This document shows, piece after piece, positions 7,401 through 53,226 of a stretch of 64,000 nt of DNA. Source of the stretch: Cheilinus undulatus (lineage: Eukaryota > Chordata > Actinopteri > Labriformes > Labridae); NCBI RefSeq assembly GCF_018320785.1, contig NC_054866.1, forward strand, positions 35,441,000 to 35,504,999, read 5' to 3'. Position numbers and translations under genes: made by a program. Under the pieces are notes generated by a model. The model was not told the origin of the DNA. It worked only from the letters and a program-made list of their open reading frames with translations, and searched no databases. How positions within the stretch are numbered: the stretch's first letter is position 1; each line of letters starts with the position of its first letter.

Positions 7401-8934
7401 AATCAGTTGGAAGTTTGACTTTATTCCAAAGTAAACTTTAAAATGTATCTAAAACAAAACAAAAAACCCAAACATTTTTATGATAAGAGCTAAAAAAATA
7501 AGGGTTAAGTTCTCTAAAGAGAAACAGTCATTGCACTTTTGTTGTGTAATAGCTCTCAGAATTGTCCTTGTATTTTTGTAGATCACAAAAATTGTGTTGA
7601 ATACATTCATCTGTAATTCCTATCCAATTCTGAAGGTGTCTCAGACGTGTGTAACTTAGTAAAGTAGAAGCAGAAGGCCGTAGTTCTTTATTGAAAGTGG
7701 TGTATTTTGAGTGGCTGAACTTTGCCTCCCAGGCTTCCCGATCTGTGTGCAGCGACAGCTGTCCTCCAGGCTCCCGCATCGCCAGGAGGAAAGGGGAACC
7801 TGTGTGCTGTTTCGACTGTGTTCCTTGTGCTGAGGGCCAAATTAGTAACAAGACTGGTGTGTTAAGTTCAGTCTTTGTTGCATTATCTAATTATAAACTG
7901 ACCTGCTTGTATCTAAATGTGGCCTCTTCACACTTTTCTCTCTCCATCTCCAGATTCTTTAGAGTGCTCACGCTGCTCTGAGGACTCATGGCCAAATACA
8001 GCCAGAGATCTCTGCCTCCCAAAGTCTATTGAGTTCTTGTCTTACCATGACTTGATGGGTATCGTGTTGTGTGTTGTATCAGTCCTTGGAGCTTGTATTT
8101 CCCTTTCAATACTGGCAATCTTCTTTGCATACCAAGACACACCTCTGGTGCGAGCTAACAACATGGAGTTGAGCCTCCTACTCCTGATGTTTCTTGCAGT
8201 CTGTTTTCTTGTCAGCCTGCTGTTTATCGGTGAACCCTCAGACTGGCTTTGCCGGATCAGGTACCCAGCATTTGGGATCAGTTTTGCTCTCTGCATATCA
8301 TGCCTACTTGCCAAGACTATAGTGGTCCTGATGGCATTTAGGTCTACGCTGCCAGGAAGTAATGTCATGAAGTGGTTTGGACCCAACCAGCAGAGAGCGA
8401 GTGTGCTTTTAGGGACAGTTATCCAGGTAGAAACACTTACAATGAGCCAGCTTTATTGTCCTTTTAACTGTGATTCCAACAAAAATTCACAATGTTCTTC
8501 CTTTTGCTTAGGTAATAATCTGTCTCATCTGGCTGTTTACTAATCCGCCTCACGTTACAAACAACACAGATTACCACAGTGCTACCATCATTATCGAGTG
8601 TGTTGCTGGTTCAGAGGTTGGCTTCTGGTGTGTTCTGGGATACATTGGCCTCCTGGCCTGCATGTGTTTCCTAATGGCCTTTTTGGCCCGAAAGTTGCCT
8701 GATAAGTTCAACGAGGCAAAGTTCATCACCTTCAGCATGCTGATATTCTTTGCAGTGTGGATTACTTTTATCCCAGTTTATGTGAGCACAGCAGGGAAGT
8801 ACACAGTGGCTGTCCATATTTTTGCCATTTTAGCCTCAGCTTTTGCTCTCCTATTTTGTATTTTTGCTCCCAAGTGCTACGTCATAATTCTGAAACCAGA
8901 AAAAAACAGCAAGAAGAACATCATGCAAAGATGA
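1498..8934 (+). CDS. OlfC/V2R receptor gene A, eight coding exons
   Basis: Family C GPCR of the fish V2R (OlfC) type, likely an olfactory receptor for amino acid-like cues at the plasma membrane. Exons: 1498-1715, 1842-2184, 2509-2796, 4933-5484, 5581-5802, 7733-7856, 7954-8426, 8512-8934; together 880 codons plus stop, no break seen. Signal peptide from [10 protein letters not shown] (an upstream in-frame ATG at 1459 is possible). The Venus-flytrap spans about residues 30-535 (start FAIKEIN, hinge motif [22 protein letters not shown]). The NCD3G Cys-rich exon (residues about 542-582) has CCFDCVPC. The 7TM part is about 600-860, ending [21 protein letters not shown]. Two introns are extra to the family plan: 2797-4932 inside the flytrap exon (after DIIQ) and the 85-bp 8427-8511 inside TM4 (after VIQ). 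It is more divergent than genes B-F (EPSDW where others have RPSEW) and is the only one on the plus strand. Confidence 0.9.
3530..4560. repeat. dispersed repeat in intron 3 of gene A
   Basis: The left part (about 3530-3690, with AGTGAGAGGTCTTGAA) and right part (about 4257-4560, with GAATTCAGTGTTGGA) match, in the same order, a second copy at about 37430-37885. The copy here has about 560 extra bases between the two parts. No terminal repeats or coding capacity are seen. It is probably a non-autonomous DNA element and may have enlarged this unusual intron. Confidence 0.6.
6285..6640. repeat. MITE fragments in intron of gene A
   Basis: Two fish-type repeat fragments lie in the 1.9-kb intron between exons 5 and 6. 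One (about 6285-6380) starts AGGGCTCCAGACTAACTTG and repeats TTAGGGGTGCA. The other (about 6545-6630) starts TTAGGGCTGCAGTTAC and continues with the ATCGA-rich sequence typical of hAT-type MITEs. Neither has both ends. Confidence 0.4.
7185..7250 (+). repeat. LINE 3' tail fragment
   Basis: The stretch around GGCAAATTTCCCCTTGGGGA followed by a run of short TATTTTATCTAAT-like units is the usual 3' tail of CR1/L2-type fish LINEs. No reverse transcriptase sequence is attached. Confidence 0.45.
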
Positions 8935-24073: not shown

Positions 24074-24482
24074 TAGGGTTGCACAATATTATCAGCGTGA
24101 TATTGAAATCGGAAGATATCAGCTTAAAAAGTGAATTATCAGCAGATATGAACATTTCTGCCAGTATTATCAACCAATATATTGGCTCTAAAAATTTGCC
24201 TATATCAGTTGAAGATATTGGCCATACAAACAGATAAGTTAGTGAAGTTACAACATCTGAAGTCCTGTCCTGATACATCACCATTCCTTGCACTTTAATG
24301 TGTATTTTAAGGACTGAAATTTGTTAACTTGTTAATCCTCAAACATTTGATTTGTGTGTTTTTAAGGGCTAAGGTTTAAGGTCTGAACTACATTTAAATA
24401 TTGGTTTAAATATTTTTAACAGCTTACTTTGAAAATGTTGGTATATCGGATAATGGCAAAAATCCGATATCCTGCATCCCTA
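24074..24482. mobile_element. TAGGGATGCA-family MITE
   Basis: The left end TAGGGTTGCACAATAT pairs with the right end ATATCCTGCATCCCTA. Length is 409 bp. Flanks (TTTTTTAT and TTTTTGCT) agree partly, as expected for a decayed 8-bp hAT duplication. It lies just downstream of the flytrap-less receptor-like gene. Confidence 0.65.
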
Positions 24483-24515
24483 TTTTTGCTATCACTTTCA
24501 AAATTTGACATTTAT

Positions 24516-27500
24516 CTATGTTAATCTGTTAATCTTAATTACTAGTAAATACTTAATTGGGACCCTTGTGTTGTGTAGACAGGTTACAAGTCGAACATTT
24601 AAAAGAAAACTCAAAATGTGTATTTTTGTCGAGATGGTTTGCAGCAAACTTAAAAATGACACAAAAACACAGTAAAAAGTAGCAAGTAGCTGCACCTGCC
24701 CTAACACAGACCAAGCCTTTAGTGTTGATCCAACACTTTCCTCAACAGGTGTTTCCTCAAACAACGGTTTGACATGCTTCATGTCAGCAAGAGGGCTGAC
24801 GAAGCAGAAAAACATCACAACAGCAGACAGAGCCTTTAATTGCTGGTGCGTGTTACCACAAAGTTTCATGATCGTTAAAGCACTCCTGCAGGCTATCATC
24901 ACCTGTAGAGTTCTCCCTAGAGCACTAGAAAGGGACACAACCAGAGACATCCCAATACCAATCCTGGACCACTCAGAGGGCGGGTGGGTGGTCGCTGATG
25001 GTGAAGAAGAGTGCAAAGTGAGGGAAAAAAGCATCATCACTGTGGAGGTGCTAGCATGAGCAGGACTGACTCTGTATGGTGATATTTTTAGTCTTCTGAT
25101 GTAGAATCCAACCATTAACACAGCTGCCAGAAAAAATCTTGCACACCATCTGGGAGGTCCTGCTGGCTGCAATCTCTCCAGTCTGCTCTCGTGAACATAA
25201 CATTTGATTTGATCTGAGGAAGACAAGAAGTTTTTACTCTTGAAATTCTTTAGATAAAAGTTAAAGATCTGTGTTCTGTTTGTGGATGTTACCGGTTGGT
25301 GTTAGGAAGTTTTCCTTTGGGCAGGGCAGGAAATAGTGAGGTGATGGCATCTGTTTAAAGCATATGAAAATTAGTTACAGCACACACATTTCATTTATTA
25401 TGATAAATACTTTTTTTTTTTTATGGAATTCATTTTCCAACAGCCAGCCCTACTACTGCCTTCTTGTTGGTTTACAAAATGCAATATTTTTATTTTTTCA
25501 AAAACAAAAGTCACTGAAAGAGCCTTGCAGGATTAGATTTATACCAGTTAGATTTCTGTATATAGGAAATCTCCTTATTGCAGTGAAAACACTTTAAAAA
25601 TCCTCATTTTCTATAAAACTTAATTTTATTCATCGCAAATATAAACTTAATCTAAGATTGATTAACAAGTTAGCAATCTACCCTCATTTTCTCCTCGTGT
25701 ACCTCTGGCCACATAAACACATGCATGCACACCAAAGTTATAATAATTTTAGGCTTTTCATCAGTTTTTATTTCAATTTCATTTTTACCTTTTATTTTAT
25801 ATTTCAGTTTAGTTTTAATCAGTTTTTCCTTCTGGGTTGCTAGTTTAGTTTGGTTTTCATTTTGCAAAAATTCTTTGTTTTAGTTTAGTTTTTATTAGTT
25901 TTAGTGTTTTAGTTTTGTCGGCAATATCGGATACTCGTCAGGGGCGAGACCCAAAAGGGCTCATCACTTTTCATTTCATTCATTCGATTCTGATGTTAAT
26001 TCACAATTTAAGACCAAAAATTACCACTTTGTGAAGTCTTCTCCAATCAAATCAGGGGATTTTACTCTCTCCAGGCTTGGGCATACATGTCAGTCATTAT
26101 GCTGCGGTCAAAAACTAAAACTATAATCACCTTGATGCACACACGCTCACACATCCATGCAGAGAGGTGCTGAGGTTTGTCCAAACTACAACTCCATCAT
26201 AGATCTATTGATGTGCTGTCTTTACCTTTTAATGTTGAACTATGTTGATGTTTGAAGGGCTTGTATACAGTTCCAGTGTCATTCAGAAGCACTTTTTCTG
26301 ATCATTTCGGTACTATTGTTACTAAATCTGCTTGAAATGCAGTCCTTCTTATGTTATCTATATACACATTTAATTGCAATCATCTAATAACAGAACCCGT
26401 AACAAATACAATTATTTTTTTGTTTAAGTAAAAAACAAAGGCAATGACCTGGGTGTAGTGAGCTGCACATTTCAGAAGACCAGATGGGACACAGATGCAT
26501 CTGCAGTTCAAGTGTGTGCTGTGATTATCACTCTTTAGCTGCATGAAGGGAATTACAGACAAATGCACAAGGTTTTACATTTATTCTTATGTACTGTACT
26601 GCTCTAATTTCAAGTTCTACTTAAATTCAACACCTGATCGTTTAAACCACATTTCCTGTTTACAACATATACGGCACTCACCTCTATAGGCAGTTGAATG
26701 CAGCTTCTCCTAGACAAGAAGTAAACCACAAACTGCTCAATATTACACTTGCAGAAATGCCTGTTCTGCATCTCTTCATTCTTCCTTTGCAACATGTTCA
26801 TACAGCCATAGAGAGGCACACATTTCATTGTCGCACAGGGAAAGAGGGTGCAGTCTTTTTTTATCCTAGTTTGATGCCTGTCCAAGGCAGCGCTCATTTC
26901 TGGACATCTAAACAGAGAAGTAGCATATGTCACGTTTTTCATACATTCAGTTAAATGCACAGCTTCTGCAAATGTTTACAAAAAGCAGTACAGCCCAGTC
27001 TCTTTTAAATGGAATATCACAACATCCAGTGCAGCCCAACTGTAAGAATGTCTGTGTTAATAATTGCAGTAAATTGGCTTCAGATTGTAATTCACCCATT
27101 AAAGCTTCTCTGGAGATCGTCTAATTATCTTTTGAGAGGTGCCTCAGTTTGGTGTTTAGTCTCCCATAATTCAGGCTGGATCCCCACTGAGGACAACATT
27201 TAATTACAAACTAATCCCACAGTGTCTTTGTGAACCTCAACACTGTGGTATCCAGTTCTGGACCAAAAAAAGCAAGTTCAAGAGCAAGGCACAAGAGAGG
27301 AAAACAATGAAAAGACAGAAAATATACCACTAATTTACTCACCTGTCATGTCTCTTTGTTAGTTTAGTTTTGCCATGAATATCAGCATTTTTTTGTATCA
27401 TACTTGAGCTGAAGCGATTTGTTCCTTCATTGTGCCTACTCAAACCAACCTCAGAGCACTGGTCCCATCTTAGCCATGTGCCAGACGACACCATCCATGT

Positions 27501-27536
27501 GAACAGGGTTAAGAAGAGAAACGTGACTGTTGTCAT
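24516..27536 (-). CDS. flytrap-less OlfC-derived receptor-like gene (novel or decaying)
   Basis: Predicted exons on the minus strand: 27536-27343 (signal peptide MTTVTFLFLTLFTWMVSSGT), 26907-26682 (Cys-rich), 25350-25293 (58 bp), 25213-24516 (membrane exon); an optional 90-bp exon 26538-26449 would also keep frame. This gives 391 codons (421 with the optional exon) and no internal stop. The last exon is clearly OlfC-derived: after DQIKC come TM1-like FFLAAVLMVGFYI, LFSLTL, PPSEW (family RPSEW), SSALGRT (CVLGKT), LTIMK (SNVMK), THQQLKALS (TQQRLSVL), VGSTLKAWSVLG ([12 protein letters not shown]) and STKIHILSF (EAKFITFSM). Splice phases 2, 0, 1 are those of OlfC exons 1/2, 2/3 or 4/5, and 5/6. 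The phase 0-0 flytrap exons 3 and 4 are absent. TM7 and the PKCY end are missing. It could be a fast-evolving gene with a new role or a relic; the open frame and good splice sites favour the first. Confidence 0.55.
26449..26538 (-). other. possible extra Cys-rich exon of the flytrap-less gene
   Basis: Between a CTTCATGCAG acceptor and a weak CAG/GTCATT donor on the minus strand lie 90 bases, phase 0 at both sides, coding LKSDNHSTHLNCRCICVPSG and then LLKCAAHYTQ. The cysteine content matches the neighbouring exon 26907-26682. It may be an optional exon or chance. Confidence 0.3.
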
Positions 27537-34311: not shown

Positions 34312-35374
34312 ATGGTAAAACGTGGAGAGCTCACTGAAACTGAAAGAGTCCGAATTAAAGCACTTCGTGATGCTGGATGGTCTCTGAGACAAATAGGGAA
34401 AGAAAGAAAGTGTTCTCACAGTGTGGTCAAGTATGCTTTGGAGTCAATTGCTGAGACGGGTACTTAGAAAACGCACAAAGGAAGAGGCAGGAAATGAAAG
34501 TTAACTGAAGCAGATGTCAGACGCCTCAAGATTTGAAGTACTAGAGACAGAAGGAAGACCACTGCTGATCTTCAGGCAGAGATGGATGCTTCTAGATCAG
34601 AGTCTGAGAAAGTCTCCAGAATGACCATAAGCAGACGACTGTCGGAACAAGGCTTAAAGGGAAGAATAGCTGCTAAGAAGCCATTATTGAGGCCTGCAAA
34701 CATCCAGAAACACCTCAGATTTGCCAGGGAGCACAAACACTGGACTGTTGATGACTGGAAGAAGGTACTCTGGACAGACGGGTCCAAGTTTGAACTCTTT
34801 GGTCAGCATCGTCATGTTTATGTCCGCAGAAAAGCTGGAGAACGTTTTGATGCCAGATGCATTGCACCCACAGTGAAACACGGTGGAGATTCCATTATGG
34901 TATGGGGTTCCATTTATGGATACGATGTGGGCAAATGAGTGAAAATGGATGGTATCATGAACAAGAACGTCTTACCACAACATCTTAGTGCATTATGGAA
35001 TCTCTTCTGGACTGAATCTGATTGGTCATGGGTTTATATACCAATAAGACAATGACCCCAAGCATACTTCAAAGCTGTGCAGAGACTATCTGACCAAGAA
35101 AAAGGAATCTGGAGTACTGGAACTGATGGACTGGCCAAGTCAAAGTCCGGATTTGAATCCTATTGAACAAATTTGGGATTTAGTAGATTCTGAGATTGAT
35201 GGCACAAAAGTTTCATCTAAAGCAAGTCTGTGGGAACAGCTAGAAACTATTTGGAACTCAATAACAAAAGAGACTGTGGAAAAGTACATAAAACAATGCC
35301 AGCAAGTATGCAACCTGTTATCAAGGCCAAAGGAGGCCATACAGAATATGAAGTTTTTGGATTATTATGTGTGA
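34312..35374 (+). pseudogene. Tc1-type transposase, disrupted
   Basis: The gene encoded a DDE transposase of the Tc1 family that cuts and pastes the element at TA sites. The N-terminal DNA-binding part has three in-frame stops between about 34460 and 34540. A clean open part runs 34582-34938 with the first catalytic aspartate in LWTDGSKF. The C-terminal part lies in a different frame, with DLNPIEQ. Confidence 0.88.
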
Positions 35375-38853: not shown

Positions 38854-41800
38854 TTAATATTGTATATCATTATTGGACGTTTTGCCCATTATATGTTTTC
38901 TAGTGTTCTGCTCAGGTCTGAACAAAATAATGAAACATTTTGGCATAAAAATGCAGAGAAGTAGCCCATAACTGGAGGCTAAGATAGCAAATATCTCCAC
39001 AGCCACAGTAAACTTTCCTGGAGAGCTGACATACGCTGGAATAAATGTGATCCAGACTGCACAGAATATCAGCATGCTGAAGGTGATGAATTTCGCTTCA
39101 TTGAAATTATTGGGCAGCTTTCGAGCCAGAAAGGCCAGAATAAAACACAAGAGAGCAAGAAGGCCGATGTATCCTAACACGGCCCAGAACCCCACAGCTG
39201 AGCCAAGATCACACTCTAATATTATCTTCTCTTTGTAGTGTTTCATGTTTTTTAGTGGAAAGGGAGGGTTGATTGTCAGCCAGAGTATACAGATTAAAAC
39301 TTGTATGAGAGTGAAAGCCAGGACGCTGATTCTTTGCTGTGCAGGCCCGAACCATTTCATTACATTACTACCTGGGAGAGTCGCCCTGAAGGCCATTAGT
39401 ACAACTATAGTTTTCCCCAGCACACATGATATACAGAGGACGAAGGTGATGCCGAATGCTGTGTGTCTCAGCATGCAGGACCACTCAGAGGGCCGGCCGA
39501 TGAATGTGAGAGAGCACAGGAAGCATAAAGTCAAGGAGAAGAGAAGCATGAAGCTCATCTCAGAGTTGTTGGCCCGGACTAGCGGTGTTTCTTTGTGGCA
39601 GTAGAAGACTAGTGTTGTTATCATAGTTAAGAAAACTCCAAGCAAGGAAAATAAAGCCAATAATGTTCCAAGGATTTCATTGTAAGCCAAGAACTCGATG
39701 ACTTTAGGGATGCAGGTGTCTCTCTGGTTGTTGGACCAGTATGTCGGAGGACATTTCATACAGATGATTGAGTCTGCAAGATAATAGAGAGTATATGTAT
39801 TAATTATGGGATCTGTTGTCTCAAAATCAGTGCATACTAACATGTTTTACACTTGTTTAATAGGGATGCATCAGATTTTTGCTGATACCCCATATGCTGC
39901 TATTTACAAATTTATTTTAGTTACTGATACTGATATTCCATTATGCATTTCAGACCTAAAACATAGGCCCTTATGACGCACTTTAAAGCAGTATTACTAA
40001 ACCCTGCTTAACCAAAGAGCCAAATTGTTGAAAAATACCTTTAAAAGAGCCATGATCTAAGTGGTGAAAAGTGCAATAAAAATGAGTCAAAGTGGGAAAA
40101 ACGTTCAAAAAGTAGCAAAGAAGTGGCAGAATGTGGGTGAAAAGGGGCAAACTAGGCATAAAATAGCAAAAACTGGGTAAAAAATGGGGAGAAAAATTAG
40201 TTACAGGCAGCAAAAATGGTAAAAAAAAAAAAAAAAAGCGGTTAAAACGTAAAAAATGAGTGAAAAGTCACTGAAATGGGCAAAAAGCAGCAAGAGCGGA
40301 AAAAAAATGGGGAAAAGAAATGGAATTCAAAGGCAAAAGACAGCTTAAATGGGTAAGAAGTGGCAAAAAAGGGGATTTTCAAATAGCAAATGGGGAGGGG
40401 AGGCACAGCCAAAAATTAAAGGCTGACGATTAAAGGTATCGCTGCACAAGAGTGTAGCTTGCAATGGATAGTTTCTGAGGTAAAAGTTTCCCTTTTTTAA
40501 GTTTTTTTGGGAGAAAAAATATTTCAACTGAAGACAGAAGAGCCACATGTTGAGTATCTCTGCTTAAAAGGTTAACAATGGAGAAACAAGCAAACTTGAA
40601 AGTTTGTGTCTGTTGGTCCTGCCTAAGTCTCCACAAACTACATGTGGCTATTATTTACAGCCAAATGAGCTAATATCTGCAGGTACCATTTTCAGGTTGA
40701 TTATATTGTGGATCCCTAATGTTTTATTTATTCTGTCTCATGTATACAGGAAATAAAACATTGGCATGTACCTGTTATGTTACTGATCTCGCCTGCTGGA
40801 CACGGTATGCATTCATAACAACATACTGGCTTTCCTTTTTGGAGGACCTTATGAGTTCCTGGGAGACAGCTCTCACTGCAGATTGACACGGGAACCTCCT
40901 AAACACACAAACACACTTCATATACACTCTGTATGGCATGGAGAGTCAAAGAGGAATGGATAGTATAATAAACCATTATGTATAGGATGATTTTTAGGAC
41001 AATTTTACCTTAATCAGACCATTTCCCCACACAACTGGGATGTTATTGGTAATAAACTGATTGCTCTCTGGGAGAGAAGCATCATAAACGCCCACTGTTA
41101 CCCCTTCCATGGTCCCTTTGTGGGTCACTTGCAGATTAACCAGTTCATATCTGGCAGGCGAGTCCCCGTTGCTGTCGAAATAAACTCTTTCCCCTTCTTT
41201 AGTGGTGAAATTCACTAAATCAAGGTATTGCAAGACCTATAAAGAAGTGAACAGCTTTAATCTGCAGTAATCTTTGCTTTTATCACTCTGCCAGACTTAA
41301 GCAGTGGATCCTCACCTGCCATGGTTGAATGTTTTTACTGTCAGCACAGCTGCCGTTTGCAAAAGGCCCTTTACCCTCTTCACATTTGATCAGGTTGTCA
41401 AGAGCGTGAGCGACTGCATAAACAGACTTGTACACATTGTTAGTGAATCTCAGCTCGGACACATCGGTGAACTGCAAGTCAACATTTTGCAGGCTTTCCG
41501 ACCCAGTGCACGGCTTTTTCTGTGTGTTTTCTGTTTCATTCAGAGCGCAGTTGAACACATCTTCCCAGAAATCCCTGACAAACTGACTGTCGGGAAACTG
41601 CAAGGGGTGGAGCTGCCTCAGGTGCTCCTCGAGCCCGGGGATGTCAGCTTTGCTGACAGTGAATCCTAGTGAACCAACCAGGATTCTGTGTCCCTCGCTG
41701 TCTGTGAGAGAGTGATCCGTGACCCAGGCATCACTCCCAACCCACTGCAGCCCTGTTATGTTCTGTTTGAACAGCTCTTTGGCAAGCAGCTTAATTTCTC

Positions 41801-43616: not shown

Positions 43617-45147
43617 CAGTGCCCTGAAAAAGTATTTGCCCCTTTCTGATACCTGATTTTTTTGCATATCTGTCACACTTAAATGTTTTGGATCATCAAT
43701 TTTAATATCTTACAAAGACAACCCAAATAAATATAAAATGCAGTTTCTAAATGATGATTTTATTTATTAAGGGAAAAAAATCCAGACCTATCTGGCCCTA
43801 TGTGAACAAATAAGACCTGATTACTGCCAGATTTGTTGACTCAAGAAATCACTTAAATAGAAGCTGTCAGACAAAGTGAAGTAGACTACAAGATCTCAAA
43901 AAGAAACACATCATGCCACGATCCAAAGAAACTCAAGAACAAATGAGAAACAAAGTGATTGAAATCTGTCAGTCTAGAAAAGATTAAAAAGCCATATCCA
44001 AGGCTTTGAGACTCAAGCATACCATGGTCAGAGCCATTATCCACAAATGAAGAAAACTGGGAACAGTGGTGAACCTTCCCAAGAGTTGTTGGCCAATCTA
44101 AATGTCTCCAAGAGTGCATGACGACTCATCCAGGAGGTCACAAAAGAACCCAGAACCACATCCAAATAACTGCAGGCATCACTGGCCTCAGTTAAGGTCA
44201 GAGTTCATGACTCAACCATAAGAAAGACACCTGGCAAAAATGGCATCATGGGAGAGTTCCAAGGCCAAAACCACTGCTGACAAAAAAGAGCACAAAGGCT
44301 CGTCTCACATTTGTCAAGAAACATCTTGATGGTCCCCAAGACTTTTGGAGAAATATTCTGTGGACTGACGAGACAAAAGTGGAACTTTATAACAGGTGTC
44401 CAGCCTGTTACATCTGGCGTAAAAATAACAGCATTTGATAAAAAGAACATCGTGCCAACAGTCAAACATGGTGGAGGCAGTGTGATGGTCTGGGGCTGCT
44501 TTGCTGCTTCAGGTCCTGGACCACTTGCTGTGATTGATGGAACAATGAATTCTGCTGTCTACCAGAAAATCCTGAAGGCTAACGTCTGGCCGTCAGTATG
44601 TGCCCTCAAGCTTAAGCGCTCTGGGTTATGCAGCAGAACAACGACCCGAAACATACCAGCAAGTCCACCACTGAATGGCTCAAGAAAAACAAAATTAAGG
44701 TTTTGGAGTGGCCCAGTCAAAGGCTGGACTTAAATCCTATTGAGATGCTGTGGTGTGACCTTAAACTGGCAGTTCATGCTCGATTACCCTCCAATATGGC
44801 TGAATTAAAACAATTCTGTGAAGAAGAGTGGGCCAAAATTCCTCCACCGCGATGTGAAAGACTCATCACCAGTTATCGCAAACACTTGATTTCAGTTATT
44901 GCTGCCAAGGGTGGCACAACCCCTTATTAGGTTCTGTAGGCAATTACTTTTTCACACAGGGCCAGATAGGTTTGGAATGTTTTCCCTTAATAAATAAAAT
45001 CATCATTTAGAAACCACATTTTGTATTTATTAGGGTTGTCTTTGTGAGATATTAAAATTGGTTTGATGATCTGAAACACATAGGTGTTAGAAATATGCAA
45101 AACAACCAGGAATCAGAAAGGGGGCAAATACTTTTCCCTGGTACTCT
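43617..45147 (+). mobile_element. Tc1-like transposon with about 200-bp inverted repeats, inactive
   Basis: Flanked by TA. The left end CAGTGCCCTGAAAAAGTATT is matched inverted at the right (GAGTACCAGGGAAAAGTATT). Inverted similarity extends about 200 bp inwards (43617-43815 against 44945-45147), including ATTTAGAAACCACATTTTGT-like sequence at the right. The plus-strand transposase begins near 43915 (MPRSKETQEQMRNKVIEICQ) and ends at 44930. It is broken by many stops. The last open part (44628-44930) has [13 protein letters not shown] and WPSQRLDLNPIEMLW. Confidence 0.92.
43915..44930 (+). pseudogene. Tc1-type transposase, disrupted
   Basis: DDE transposase of the Tc1 family. The N-terminal DNA-binding region has several stops. 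A middle stretch with VKHGGGSVMVWGCFAASGPG (from about 44461) is open. The final catalytic region is in another frame. No function is expected. Confidence 0.88.
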
Positions 45148-47422: not shown

Positions 47423-50400
47423 TTAGTAGGATTTTGTTGCTCCCTTCCCCATGATATTCTTTTTTGTATTCTTCCCTGGTTTCAGTAAGATAATGTAACA
47501 TTTTGGAACAAAAATACAAATAAGTAGTCCAAAAGTAGAGGCTAGAATGGCAAATATCTCCACAGCAACGCTAAACTTCCCAGGAGAGCTGACATATGCA
47601 GGGATAAAAGTAATCCATACAGCACAGAATATCAGCATGCTGAATGTGATGAACTTAGCTTCATTAAAATTATCAGGCAGCTTTCTGGCTAGAAAAGCCA
47701 GCACGAAACAAAACATGGCCAGAAGTCCTATATACCCAAGTACTGCCCAAAAACCCACAGCTGAGCCAAAAGCACACTCTAATATGATTTTGTTCTTGAA
47801 CTCCTTCAAGTTCTTGAAGGGAAACGGGGGAGAGATCGTTAACCAGAGGATACATATGAGTATTTGTATAAGTGTGAAACCAAGAACACTGAGTTTCTGC
47901 TGAGTTGGCCCGAACCATTTCATCACGTTACTCCCTGGAAGTGTCGCCCTGAAGGCCATTAACACAACTATAGTTTTCCCTAGAACACATGATATACAGA
48001 GGACAAAGGTGATGCCGAATGCTGTGTGTCTCAGCATGCAGGACCACTCAGAGGGCCGGCCGATGAAAGTGAGAGAGCACAGGAAGCACAGAGTTAAGGA
48101 GAAGAGCAGGAGGAAGCTCAGCTCAGAGTTGTTGGCCCGAACAATCGGCGTGTGTCTGTGTCTGAAAAAAATGAAGGCGACGACAGCAGTCATAAATGTT
48201 CCTAAAAGTGAGGCTGAAGTGAGGAGTGCTCCCAAAATCTCTTTATAAGATAGAAACTCTGCCTCCTTTTTTACACAGGCATCTCTTCTCTCATTGGACC
48301 AGTAGTCAGGCTGACATTCTTCACAGGTGATAGAATCTGAAAAAGGATGTAAAAGCAGTTGTTAGAGGTTGACTATTGTAGACCAAGGGAACAAACGCTT
48401 ATCAAACCTTTATGATAAAATGGCCGTGTTTTTCAGTTGTTTATGAGCAACAGCAAACTTCTGAGATGGAGGGGTTTGTCAGTCTGACAGATAACGATGC
48501 TGTAGCACACTAAATGAGATTATGTTACAGGAATCTCTGACAAAATACCAATATCACAGAATAAATGATATGAAAGCCAAAGCCCAGAATAAATATTATA
48601 TTTATTCTGGGCTTTGGCTGCCTGTTCTGCCTTGGATTTTTTGTGGCTACACTGATCAGAATGTGTTGGTGAGTTTTTTAGATCAGTGGTTTTCAAACTT
48701 TTTTTGCCCAAGGCACACCTAAGGTTAAGCCAAAATCTCAAGGCACACCATATTTAAATTGATACAAAATAGACCTTTTAGAATAATGTTACAGTCAAGT
48801 TGGCCTATAAGGGGAGAAAGGGGAGAGCTTTCTGGGCACAGCCAACTGGGGGATCATGGAGATGGCAAAAGGTGGAAAAAACGGGTTAAAGTTGATGAAA
48901 AAACATGGCAAAATTGTGCAAAAGTGGCTAAACAAAGTCAGTAATGGGCGAAAATTGGTAAAAAGTGGCCTACCAATGGGTTGAAATTGGCCAAAACTTG
49001 TTGAAAGTAGGGGGGCCCTGATTGCAATTTTCTGGCCGATCACTGATCACCGAACTTTAAAAAGCCTGACCTGCCGATTCTGATTTTGGCTGATACCAAT
49101 TTTTTTTATAACTGACAGCATACACCTTCAATGTTCCAATCTTATTTTATTGAATAACATTGAACAATACCCGTAAAACAATACAAACTTATTGTTTTAA
49201 CTGCACATGAGGTAGTTTTCTCAAATATAAATGAAAAGTTTAAAGCATTGCTGTCCAAACTACTAAATTATATCAGTTCCTTTAGTCTTTCATTTATCAC
49301 ATTTTAGTAGGTAGAGGCATATGAAACCGATCTTATCCACCAATCTTATTTACAAGGATCGGCCAAATCGCCGATCTTCCAAAATTAAGGAAATCGGCAC
49401 CGATACCAATTTTGGCCGATCGATCGGTGCACCCCTAGTTGAAAGTGTCAAAATAGTGGCAAAAATGGGTTATTATTGGCCTAAAAGGATTAAAATGGGA
49501 TAAAAGTGATAAGAAAAAAGTGCAAAAGTGGCAAAAAAAGTGGTAAAAAGGCAAAAGTGTCAAAAAGGTGGCAAAATAGATCACAAGTAGAAGAAAAGTG
49601 GCAAAAAGGGTTAAAGTTACTACAAGGTGGTTAAAAAGGGTTAAAAGTGATGGGAGAAAATGGGAAAAAGTGGCAAAACAATAGCAAAATTGTGCGAAAA
49701 GTGGCAAGAAGGTAGCAAAAATGGGTTAAATGTGGCAAAAAGTTCCAAAAAAAGGTAGCAAAATTGGGTTAAATGTGGGAAAAAGGTAGCAAAAATGGGT
49801 TGATTGTGGGAAAAAGTTCAGAAAAAGGTAGAAAAAATTGGTTAAATGTGGGAAAAAGTTCCAAAAAAGTTGCAAAAATGGGTCAAAAGTAGTAATAAGA
49901 AGCAGCAAAAAAAGTAGTCAAAAGAAGTGGCAAAAATGGGTAGAAAAATTGTTTAACTTGGTTAAAAATTGAATCGATTGATAAATTTTACACCAATTCA
50001 ACCCAATAATAGTTTGCCATGCTTTTCTGCTCTTAACGAGGTAACTGTTAACCAGGATGCTAGCACCGATGCTACTGATCCAACACACATACACTGATAT
50101 CATCAATAAATCAGGGGAGGTCCCATTCTCTAGGGTTTTTACAGGGGTCCAGCCAGTTCTATGGGCAGGCCTGGTTACAGTTCTTGCCATAAAATTGTAG
50201 TAATATATGGTGCAAATTACCACGGCACACCTAGACTTGCCTTAAGGCACACTAGTGTACCTTGGCACACCATTTGAGAACCACTGTTTTAGATTATAAA
50301 TGTTTCAAATTTTAAAGACAGTTTAAAACTGGAAGGGTGATGCTCCATGTATCATGCATGTCACTGAATACCCCCAATCCTTTGTGCTTTCAAATAGGTG

Positions 50401-53226
50401 ATAAAAGTGTTTTGTAGGGGCATGATGTAGAAATATCTGAAGAGTCATTAATGTACAAAAAATAACATAAGGTTTCCAGCAAATGTCATTGCTTCAGAAA
50501 CTACATTTTCCATTACTTCTATCTGTGCATGGCTGTAATGTGCCTCTGCCACCAGAGGGTGGCTGTAGCATATCTAAATTGTGTTCCTAGCCACAATTAC
50601 ATAACAGAAAAAGAAGAAAGCAGTAATGTCTGATGGCAAAACTGCAGTGTTGTAAATTAACTTTGCTTCCCTACATTCAGGAAACAATCTATTTTAAGAT
50701 TCAGTCACACTGTCTAACAAGTAGACTGCCATCAAATGGTCTCAAAACAACACTCCTTCAATCTAGCAATGGATTTACTTAAATTTATGTGAACACTGAA
50801 AGTTTGTGTTGTCAGTTAGTGTTGAAACCCTTTTGTATGACCTTCAAAACCTTAATTTGCATTTGCAGGATCTTTCCCTACATGAAGGTCTTAGTATTTG
50901 TTTGGATATTTGATGTTTACTGTATCAATCAGCTTCTGTTTGTCTGATAAACATAACAGTTCTTAACAGCTGCTGATGGCTTCTCCAGGCAGATTACTAC
51001 ACCATGTAATTTCTATAATTTGGTGCATGAAAATGGCATGATAACAACACCTGCAATATTGCTTATCTCTCCCTCTGCACATCTGAGGCAGTCATAGCAG
51101 CAGACAGGCTTCCCCTTCTGGAGAACCTTGCGAGTTCCTGGGTGGCATTTCTCGCTGCAGACTGACTGAGGCACCTGCATGAAAAACAGACAGGCGTTTT
51201 ATTTTTTAGACATCTCAAACATTATGGTACAGTAAATAATACAGTATTAGTACTTGAGAGTAGTAGCTATGAAAGGTTACCTTTTGTGAGTTTTCTGCCC
51301 AAATTAAAGACCTATTGTGCAGAATAAGCTGCCTATCTGCTGGTAGTGATGCGTCATAAAGGCCAACTGCGACAAAGTCTACAATGCCATTTTTATTTGG
51401 CTGCCAGTTAATAATTTCATACTTTGCTGGTGGGTCTCCATTCTCATTGAAGTAAACATCATCTCCTTCCTTTGTTTTGAACTGAATCTGCTGAATGTGC
51501 CGTAAAATCTGAGGAGATGTGCACTCATTTTTAATAGCTTGATACACTCGTTACAATAACAGACTATTTTCATAGGCATTGTAACTTCACGTGAATTGTA
51601 ATTGTTGGTGCTTAACTTACCATGGATGGATCCAGCTGCTCTTTATTGTTACATGTTTTATTGCAGCTGAGCATCCTATGAAGTGCGTGGGCCACAGCAT
51701 ACACTCCTTTATAGACATTGTTAAAGATCGGCATTAGAGACATGTCAGTGAAGCTGTTCTGAACTTCAGTCAGATCTTCCTGTCCAGTACATTCTCTCTG
51801 GTTTCCTGCTGTTTTCTTGAACCTACATTGAAATAGTGTCTCCCAAAACTCTGTGAACATTTCATTACTAGATGAATTAAGTGGCTTCACATCCAGCATG
51901 AACTCTCTCATACCACTGACTTGAGCTTTAGGGATTGACAGACCTATAGCACCATCCAGAACATGATGCCCACCTGTGGCTGCGATTTGGGAGTCAAAGA
52001 TCCAGCCCTCACTGCCTACCCATTGGTATCCTGTCAGGTTGTTCTCAGACAGCTTGCGTGTTAGCATGTGCATATCTGAGGCAGAGAGGAAGGCAACAAT
52101 CACTTTAGAAGTGGAGGCCTTGATGGTGTCCATTACCTTTTGTATTTTGTCTGGTGGATCCGTTCTAAAGACGGATAAAGAGTACTCCAGACAAATGCCC
52201 AGCCGTTGGGCCGTTGCTGTGAAAGTAGCCATGCCATTGTTGCCATAATCATCGTTTGTTCTTAAAGCTCCAACCCAAGTCCAACCGAAGTGTTTGACCA
52301 ACTGGGCCAAGGCTCTGCTCTGGTAATTGTCACTTGGTATTGTTCTGAGAAAGGATGGGTACTTGGTTTTATCACTGAGGCAAGCACAAGTAGCTGCATG
52401 GCTGATCTGTAAGGAAAAAAGATGAAGCCCAAGATAAAAATGCACTGTAAAGAAGTACTTACAGAGAATTAAAGCTACTTTTCCACATGCATAAATCAAA
52501 TTTGACCTTACTCACCAGTGGGATATAAAAGGGCCCGACGACAGTAGCGATAGCCATGCATGGAGAAGAGAAGGTCTCTCCCATGATGGCTTGCACTTGA
52601 GCAGGTCTTGTACATGGTTTGTCAGAGGATGCAGACACCATTTCATTACCATTAACCAAGGCTAGAGCGACTTTCACAGCTCTAGCAATGGATCCACATG
52701 AATCATAGATCTTATAGCCCAGAGAGATTCCAGGGAGCAGGTCTGAGCTGTTATTTATCTCTTCGATGGCAAAACGCATAGCCTGGGTATACTGGAAGCC
52801 CCTGAAATTCAAACTTGATACAGGCAGAAATAGGAGAAGAAACAGTAGCACATTAAATCAAGGCATTCTGTGATTTTAATTCCTAAAAGACAATATAATT
52901 ATCGTCTTTATTCTTAGTTTATAGTCATTTTTGTTGTATTGAATCTCTACCACCTTTCTCTTAGCGATATAAGTAGATTTTAATGCCATTTACCGAATGC
53001 ACTGTAGTGGCAAAGGTGTGTGTGAGAAGGTATTCTGTCCTTCCTCCCAGCGGCTATGGAAAGAGAAGATTCCCCCCAACATAATGTCCCCCTCCATGGA
53101 CAGCTGGGGGTATTCTACCTCCCCCCTCCGACGGCACACCAATTTTTCAGCATGAGAGACATACACAACCCAGAGCAGCCCTAACAGTGCCCAACCCTTC
53201 TCTAACCATCTCTGAGTGGATGTCAT
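47423..53226 (-). CDS. OlfC/V2R receptor gene E, six exons
   Basis: Minus-strand OlfC receptor, 860 codons plus stop. Exons: 53226-52994, 52813-52516, 52406-51621, 51508-51281, 51174-51051, 48336-47423. The start [20 protein letters not shown] is the first ATG after a TATA box and gives a signal peptide. The flytrap covers about residues 30-510 ([82 protein letters not shown]). Exon 5 has CCYDCLRC. The 7TM exon begins near residue 557 with [13 protein letters not shown] and contains [50 protein letters not shown] and [22 protein letters not shown]. Intron 5 is 2.7 kb because a hAT-type element, itself carrying a nested element, sits in it. It appears intact. Confidence 0.94.
48870..49980. repeat. 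degenerate tandem tract of GGCAAAA/GGGTTAAAA units
   Basis: Purine-rich short units (AAAAGTGGCAAAA, ATGGGTTAAATGTG, GGTAGCAAAAATGGGT) repeat with variation before and after the nested MITE (about 48870-48999 and 49446-49980). Similar units occur in the element in intron 5 of gene D. The tract looks like a minisatellite that expanded inside the transposon. Confidence 0.7.
49008..49437. mobile_element. nested hAT-type MITE, perfect 8-bp duplication
   Basis: Starts TAGGGGGGCCCTGATTGC and ends GGCCGATCGATCGGTGCACC then CCTA. Flanked exactly by GTTGAAAG on both sides (49000-49007 and 49438-49445). The interior has repeated CCGATC/GATCGG. It inserted into the GGCAAAA tract of the element at 48684-50286 and is thus younger. 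Confidence 0.9.
50548..50563. promoter_or_regulatory. CTCF-like motif
   Basis: GCCACCAGAGGGTGGC agrees with the vertebrate CTCF core (CCACCAGRGGGC) at most positions and is nearly palindromic. It lies in intron 5 of gene E. Similar strings also occur in fish repeats, so binding is only a possibility. Confidence 0.25.

Follow-up and report, generated by a model that had tools for sequence, protein, structure and literature searches.

OlfC receptors and the candidate locus

Among orphan class C receptors, the GPRC5 group and GPR156 have short ectodomains and retain the full seven-helix domain. The candidate gene described here, like these receptors, belongs by descent to class C and lacks a full Venus flytrap; it differs from them in being derived from OlfC, the fish V2R-like receptors, and in having lost helices 6 and 7. 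According to PMC1764893, full-length OlfC genes of zebrafish have six coding exons with strictly conserved intron phases, and it gives as their criteria a signal sequence, a stop after TM7, alignment of all six exons and the absence of any frameshift, stop or significant deletion. PMC10869828 counts a V2R as complete from 2100 bp upward, and the candidate would fail as a complete V2R for this reason. PMC1601972 ascribes V2R sequences whose TM regions are complete and whose N-termini are short to incomplete genome data or assemblies. The candidate is like the “truncated” or “partial” V2R genes of these surveys (PMC10869828, PMC1764893 and PMC1601972) in being undisabled yet not full length. Unlike the short-N-terminus V2Rs of PMC1601972, it lies on a 57.6-Mb contig and has held its frame through extreme divergence. 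Among the listed titles and abstract openings on truncated or flytrap-less OlfC, V2R or class C genes, none described a flytrap-less OlfC in use; the search covered mainly openly available papers and is weak evidence of absence.

The window, the whole stretch of DNA analyzed here, covers 64,000 bp of contig C2 (35441000-35504999) in the 1.17-Gb genome of Cheilinus undulatus. OlfC receptors form the majority of its recognizable genes, and 18 further OlfC exon 6 loci in addition to the candidate were found in the 185 kb around the window, minus 1 kb, with exons of the window as queries. Two full OlfC genes on the same strand, at 17.8-21.0 kb and 38.9-42.8 kb, flank the candidate. In the OlfC gene models of the window the exons measure about 200-233, 271-298, 786-825, 228-231, 124 and 896-917 bp (the last without the stop), and the introns are of phase 2 between exons 1 and 2, phase 0 at the 2/3, 3/4 and 4/5 junctions and phase 1 between exons 5 and 6.

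The sequence-only reading had proposed a gene of four open exons with GT/AG junctions, OlfC-type phases and a TATA box in the usual place, and this model was borne out. Four open minus-strand exons lie where they had been placed, encoding 391 amino acids with 0 internal stops and with GT/AG at all junctions (Table 1). The kept junctions have phases 2, 0 and 1, in line with the strict phase conservation of OlfC genes and with those of the window. Exon lengths of 194, 226, 58 and 695 bp (698 with the stop) fit OlfC exons 1, 2, 5 and 6 modulo 3, with exon 3 being 66 bp (22 codons) shorter than the 124-bp OlfC exon 5. The TATA box, at -54, has counterparts at comparable distance in three of the five neighboring OlfC genes (C at -61, F at -45 and E at -68, with none within 150 nt in genes A and B), and the chance of such a box in an 85-nt intergenic stretch is 7.9%. 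Donor strengths are 8.4 bits for exon 1, 7.5 bits for exon 2 and a weak 0.86 bits for the 58-bp exon. A hydrophobic stretch past the ATG, with a best 8-residue mean hydropathy of 2.47, is a putative signal sequence of the kind expected of OlfC genes. A GC contrast of the candidate exons is not claimed, with 9-27% of intergenic windows being equally rich.

Table 1. Features of the candidate gene, in window positions.
Feature	Position	Strand	Remarks
TATA box TATATAA	27584..27590	-	54 nt upstream of start codon
Exon 1, 194 bp	27343..27536	-	start codon, signal-peptide-like stretch, phase 2 end; matches OlfC exon 1 in position and phase
Exon 2, 226 bp	26682..26907	-	75 codons, 8 Cys, phase 2 to 0; matches OlfC exon 2 in position and phase
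Interspersed repeat in intron 2, about 390 bp (392 bp)	25732..26123		at least 39 other full-size copies, 80-87% identity
Exon 3, 58 bp	25293..25350	-	phase 0 to 1, weak donor; matches OlfC exon 5 in position and phase
Exon 4, 698 bp with stop	24516..25213	-	homologue of OlfC exon 6; same starting phase, Cys at same fourth place
Block of certain OlfC homology, TM2-TM5	24648..25061	-	137 aligned codons without stop or frameshift; in-frame gaps only

The candidate is like OlfC or fish V2R genes in its cluster, the strand of its two neighbors, its intron phases, exon order, TATA distance and TM2-TM5 sequence. It is unlike them in having no flytrap exons, a cysteine-rich domain (CRD) exon of 58 rather than 124 bp, no TM6-TM7 and no 7tm_3 match.

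Descent of the exons and the missing parts

Over TM2-TM5, the last exon of the candidate is certainly of OlfC descent, as judged by sequence homology. It matched the OlfC exon at 38857-39773 with a BLASTP E value of 2e-16 and scored 36.7 bits against an HMM of the five exon 6 sequences of the window, a score reached by none of 1933 scored shuffles (best 12.7). In a frameshift-tolerant profile scan it scored 46.5, with a maximum of 21.4 among 60 controls; these profiles were built on 14 exon 6 rows from matches covering at least 80% of the query, with the candidate excluded. Genome-wide, exon 4 had 12 matches: itself, seven OlfC genes of the same cluster (2.4e-9 to 0.002) and four at chance level. 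When compared with 31 class C exons from this genome, seven OlfC exons matched at 1e-9 or better and the next match was at 0.03. The proposed OlfC descent of the membrane exon is therefore supported by homology that is specific to one OlfC group. The likeness had been drawn from TM1 to TM6; it is solid for TM2-TM5, does not exceed controls for TM1 taken by itself, and is undetectable for TM6-TM7. The tblastn match does extend to 25133, into TM1; the first 66 positions of exon 6 had a score of 12.0, reached by 47 of 208 controls, and TM1 was set aside as weak.

Within the block the candidate is 31-34% identical to genes B, C, E and F, and those four are 87-93% identical to one another. In the tree, from which one OlfC exon with an internal stop was dropped, genes B, C, E and F group with seven further OlfC sequences to the exclusion of the candidate (support 53), which in turn lies inside gene A and the OlfC exon found at position 146221 of the cluster (support 90). 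The candidate's branch length is 5.7; long-branch effects on this placement are possible, and its B/C/E/F group contains five genes not favored by BLAST. A genome search for a second copy of the candidate gene returned none among 18 scored candidates.

The first three exons resemble OlfC weakly. None had a significant match in OlfC profile (HMM) searches, and in global peptide alignment of exons 1, 2 and 3 to OlfC exons 1, 2 and 5, respectively, 53, 38 and 77 of 1000 shuffles scored at least as high as the exons themselves. In the frameshift-tolerant scan their scores were reached by 7, 16 and 64 of 200 control windows. At the DNA level, alignment to the same OlfC exons was equalled by 0, 0 and 24 of 300 random windows that were not matched in composition. 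We lean to descent of exons 1-3 from OlfC exons 1, 2 and 5, and the ectodomain that had been called new may be just these three exons in an eroded state. Capture of exon 2 from another gene was rejected, as nothing elsewhere in the genome fell below E 0.14; a DUF6435 (Pfam) match of the open frame around exon 1, with E 0.12 and 12.8 bits against a cut-off of 26.9, was disregarded. The description of exon 2 as Cys-rich holds by count, with 8 Cys where the five OlfC exon 2 sequences have 2-3; it does not hold for composition (8 vs 4.45 expected, P 0.078), and no enrichment is claimed.

It is possible that the last exon alone is real, and that exons 1-3 are chance frames or the true gene has other upstream exons. 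The missing profile matches and the control windows that equal exons 1-3 in the scan speak for this, as does the frequency of frames like exon 3, which under lax limits occurred in 28% of 400 shuffles and in 64% of intergenic segments. The same 400 shuffles contained exon-1-like frames in 2.5% and exon-2-like frames in 1.75%, and never the full chain. With limits picked when the candidate was already known, the chain was defined as a signal-peptide-like start with a TATA box, splice sites no weaker than the weakest one in the candidate, and exons of the correct size and phase. On these criteria the complete chain was absent from all 200 intergenic segments, where an exon-2-like frame occurred in 0/200 and an exon-3-like frame in 31/200, and from 400 segment-wise dinucleotide shuffles at the candidate's own thresholds. 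With lax limits and no TATA box required, it was absent from 400 of 400 intergenic segments. The intergenic segments overlap one another because they were drawn from about 22 kb. The four-exon chain is more than chance would give. Together with the agreement of phases and TATA box with OlfC, and with exon 1 and 2 DNA whose alignment to the corresponding OlfC exons surpasses all 300 random windows (composition not matched), this makes a gene model without exons 1-3 improbable.

Loss of the Venus flytrap, as originally proposed, was supported: OlfC exons 3 and 4 were undetectable in profile scans. In frameshift-tolerant scans of intron 2, a decayed exon 3 was rejected at a score of 17.7 (control mean 15.6, matched by 9/60 controls) and a decayed exon 4 at 11.2 (matched by 172/200 controls). 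A sliding scan of 20.9-38.8 kb for an exon 3 remnant gave 19.1 for the window starting at 24900, below two other gap sites at 20.1 and 19.8. An opposite-strand exon 4 score of 20.6 (control maximum 15.7) reflects a loose alignment of 35 codons at 26019-26123, which shows no clear likeness and is probably due to chance. Exon 2 and the exon that follows it lie 1.33 kb apart in the candidate and 1.34-1.50 kb apart in five intact genes. Intron 2 contains an interspersed repeat (Table 1; 40 of 2188 first-look candidate copies were scored), and 939 bp remain without it, where OlfC exons 3-4 alone have about 1.01-1.06 kb of coding sequence. Deletion plus decay is the simplest account of the missing exons, with the shares of the two being inseparable.

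At the other end of the gene, a TM6-TM7 profile run downstream of the homology block to 20.9 kb scored 13.5, against a control mean of 13.4, and was reached by 39/104 controls. This region is the part of OlfC exon 6 richest in invariant residues. Some 30 bp beyond the candidate's stop, at about 24076-24484, inspection by eye showed a short element whose ends are inverted (TAGGGTTGCA ... TGCATCCCTA). It may have removed the TM7 end.

Receptor features, frame retention and interpretation

The product had been described as a family C receptor-like protein, and this part of the sequence-only reading found no support in that wording. Neither exon 4 nor the whole protein matched Pfam 7tm_3 or any other family at E up to 10, with HMMER filters dropping most matches above about 0.1; an intact neighbor exon matched 7tm_3 at 7e-85. 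The candidate has four hydrophobic stretches at 1.4 and six at 1.0, compared to seven at 1.9 or more in each of five OlfC exons. Its TM2-TM5 hydropathy peaks are within neutral expectation, as their sum was reached by 21% or 83% of simulations depending on the model. Among the residues invariant in 13 OlfC exons, 25/115 are retained overall and 4/42 from inner loop 3 to TM7. In that count 1/11 invariant Cys is kept, besides the Cys at the fourth place of the exon; two of those lost, one ahead of TM3 and the other in outer loop 2, are the partners in the class C disulphide. The Pfam silence, weak hydropathy and lost invariant residues and Cys make a G-protein-coupled receptor of the usual type unlikely, and in the strict sense the candidate is, from its sequence, unlikely to be receptor-like. 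Structure prediction by AlphaFold2 from a six-row alignment gave exon 4 a mean pLDDT of 48.7 and an intact OlfC exon with the same rows 48.1, so that neither value is informative; the best PDB match, a transport protein at E 0.14, was set aside.

Set beside the OlfC criteria, the candidate has a TM6-TM7 profile at control level where a stop after the seventh transmembrane domain is expected. Exon 6 alone of the six OlfC exons aligns significantly, and the frame is clean while exons 3-4 and TM6-TM7 are missing. The Venus-flytrap ligand-binding domain of class C receptors is also lacking.

The earlier argument that a dead copy of this divergence should carry stops was supported by neutral simulations, in which four sibling exons were evolved and runs with a profile score of 35-60 bits were retained. 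Paths spanning at least 130 aligned codons stayed intact in 0/52 runs at an indel ratio of 0.12, 0/46 at 0.05 and 1/36 without indels. An open run of 130 was found in 3/36 substitution-only simulations, and an ORF of at least 190 codons in 0 of 134 simulations. In an earlier neutral run, an open run of 130 was seen in 0/64 and a shorter path without stops or frameshifts in 12/64. The candidate itself has 0 disabling changes over 392 codons including the stop. Given that 3.9% of its possible substitutions create stops, the chance of an unbroken frame would fall below 5% once a neutral phase exceeded 0.02-0.065 substitutions per site; the candidate's dN is about 0.7-0.9.

A codon model of 136 codons in nine of the tree's 14 sequences rejected omega = 1 on the candidate branch (LRT 13.4), a value reached by none of 80 neutral simulations that were realigned identically with the other branches fixed (maximum 10.6). 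The value of omega is not estimable and has no lower bound, the estimate being at the bound because dS is saturated. If dS is set to the path lengths of the siblings, counted from that branch's own node (about 0.5-1.8), omega comes to about 0.4-1.7, and constraint may therefore have been slight. These data bear on whether the gene is an ordinary OlfC pseudogene that drifted neutrally since duplication and is open by luck. The loss of exons and conserved residues would fit such a history, as would a dN near the expectation for a neutral branch of the siblings' age, a clock that allows omega near 1, and the single intact path among the 36 substitution-only simulations. Against it are the 0/98 such paths in simulations with indels, the rejection of omega = 1 and the absence of the exon chain from controls, and we regard this history as very improbable.

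A recently dead relic, which was coding through its fast divergence and is now unexpressed or unused, is rather unlikely and has more in its favor. The flytrap and TM6-TM7 are gone, the helix hydropathy has decayed, and the selection signal averages the whole branch, so that the end of selection cannot be dated from it. In contrast, a relic would have to have kept 392 codons with the stop free of any disabling change, strong donors at exons 1 and 2 and a TATA box. On balance, it is slightly more probable than not that the candidate is a maintained, very fast-evolving protein-coding gene derived from OlfC, without the flytrap and TM6-TM7. The best reading is that it has ceased to be a ligand-gated class C GPCR. 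The frame, the splice sites, the position of the promoter and the codon test speak for a protein having been produced through most of the gene's history; its production at present is putative.

For this maintained gene, the starting point would be a tandem OlfC duplicate, kin to the surrounding OlfC group, which lost exons 3 and 4 and with them the bulk of the Venus flytrap. Exon 5 would have been shortened and the TM6-TM7 end lost or replaced, with the gene staying protein-coding while diverging very fast. Transcription is predicted from an OlfC-type promoter, and the product would enter the secretory pathway with a short Cys-containing ectodomain and a reduced membrane part of four to six hydrophobic stretches. 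Such a product would neither bind amino acids via a flytrap nor couple to a G protein. We tentatively suggest, as a possibility that falls somewhat short of an even chance, that an odorant receptor gene has been recast as a non-receptor protein, having lost the flytrap and the G-protein-facing helices and yielding a short, Cys-containing membrane or secreted product under selection. The likeliest role would be a non-signaling one, such as partnering intact OlfC receptors or modulating their trafficking, a guess that we consider unlikely to be right.

Chemoreceptor duplicates are usually classed as working or dead, and truncated ones are set aside. If our reading is true, a gene that holds its frame minus the ligand-binding domain and part of the helix bundle would be a third outcome for duplicates. 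Descendants of this kind are dropped by surveys because full length is required; length cut-offs hide them, and the candidate supplies concrete junctions (27343/26907, 26682/25350 and 25293/25213).

Structure of other genes in the cluster

The plus-strand OlfC exon 6 at window 7956-8931 appears to have an extra short intron at IQ|V. The same apparent split was seen in two more plus-strand OlfC genes (C2:35361170-35361241 and C2:35371939-35372026), with 70-86 nt between the matched pieces in the three genes, contrary to the six-exon rule of zebrafish. A fourth OlfC gene has a 493-nt break near the IQ|V site without a clean junction. In five minus-strand OlfC genes at C2:35378944-35417326 (L010-L014), exon 3 is in 3-4 pieces at similar places, as if introns had been gained. 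The OlfC gene at 53.2-47.4 kb (window 47426-51174, minus strand) has a long last intron of about 2.7 kb, provided that the exon 6 at 47.4-48.3 kb belongs to it. Frames resembling pieces of Tc1-type transposase were seen by eye on the plus strand at window 34537-35374 and 44281-44930.
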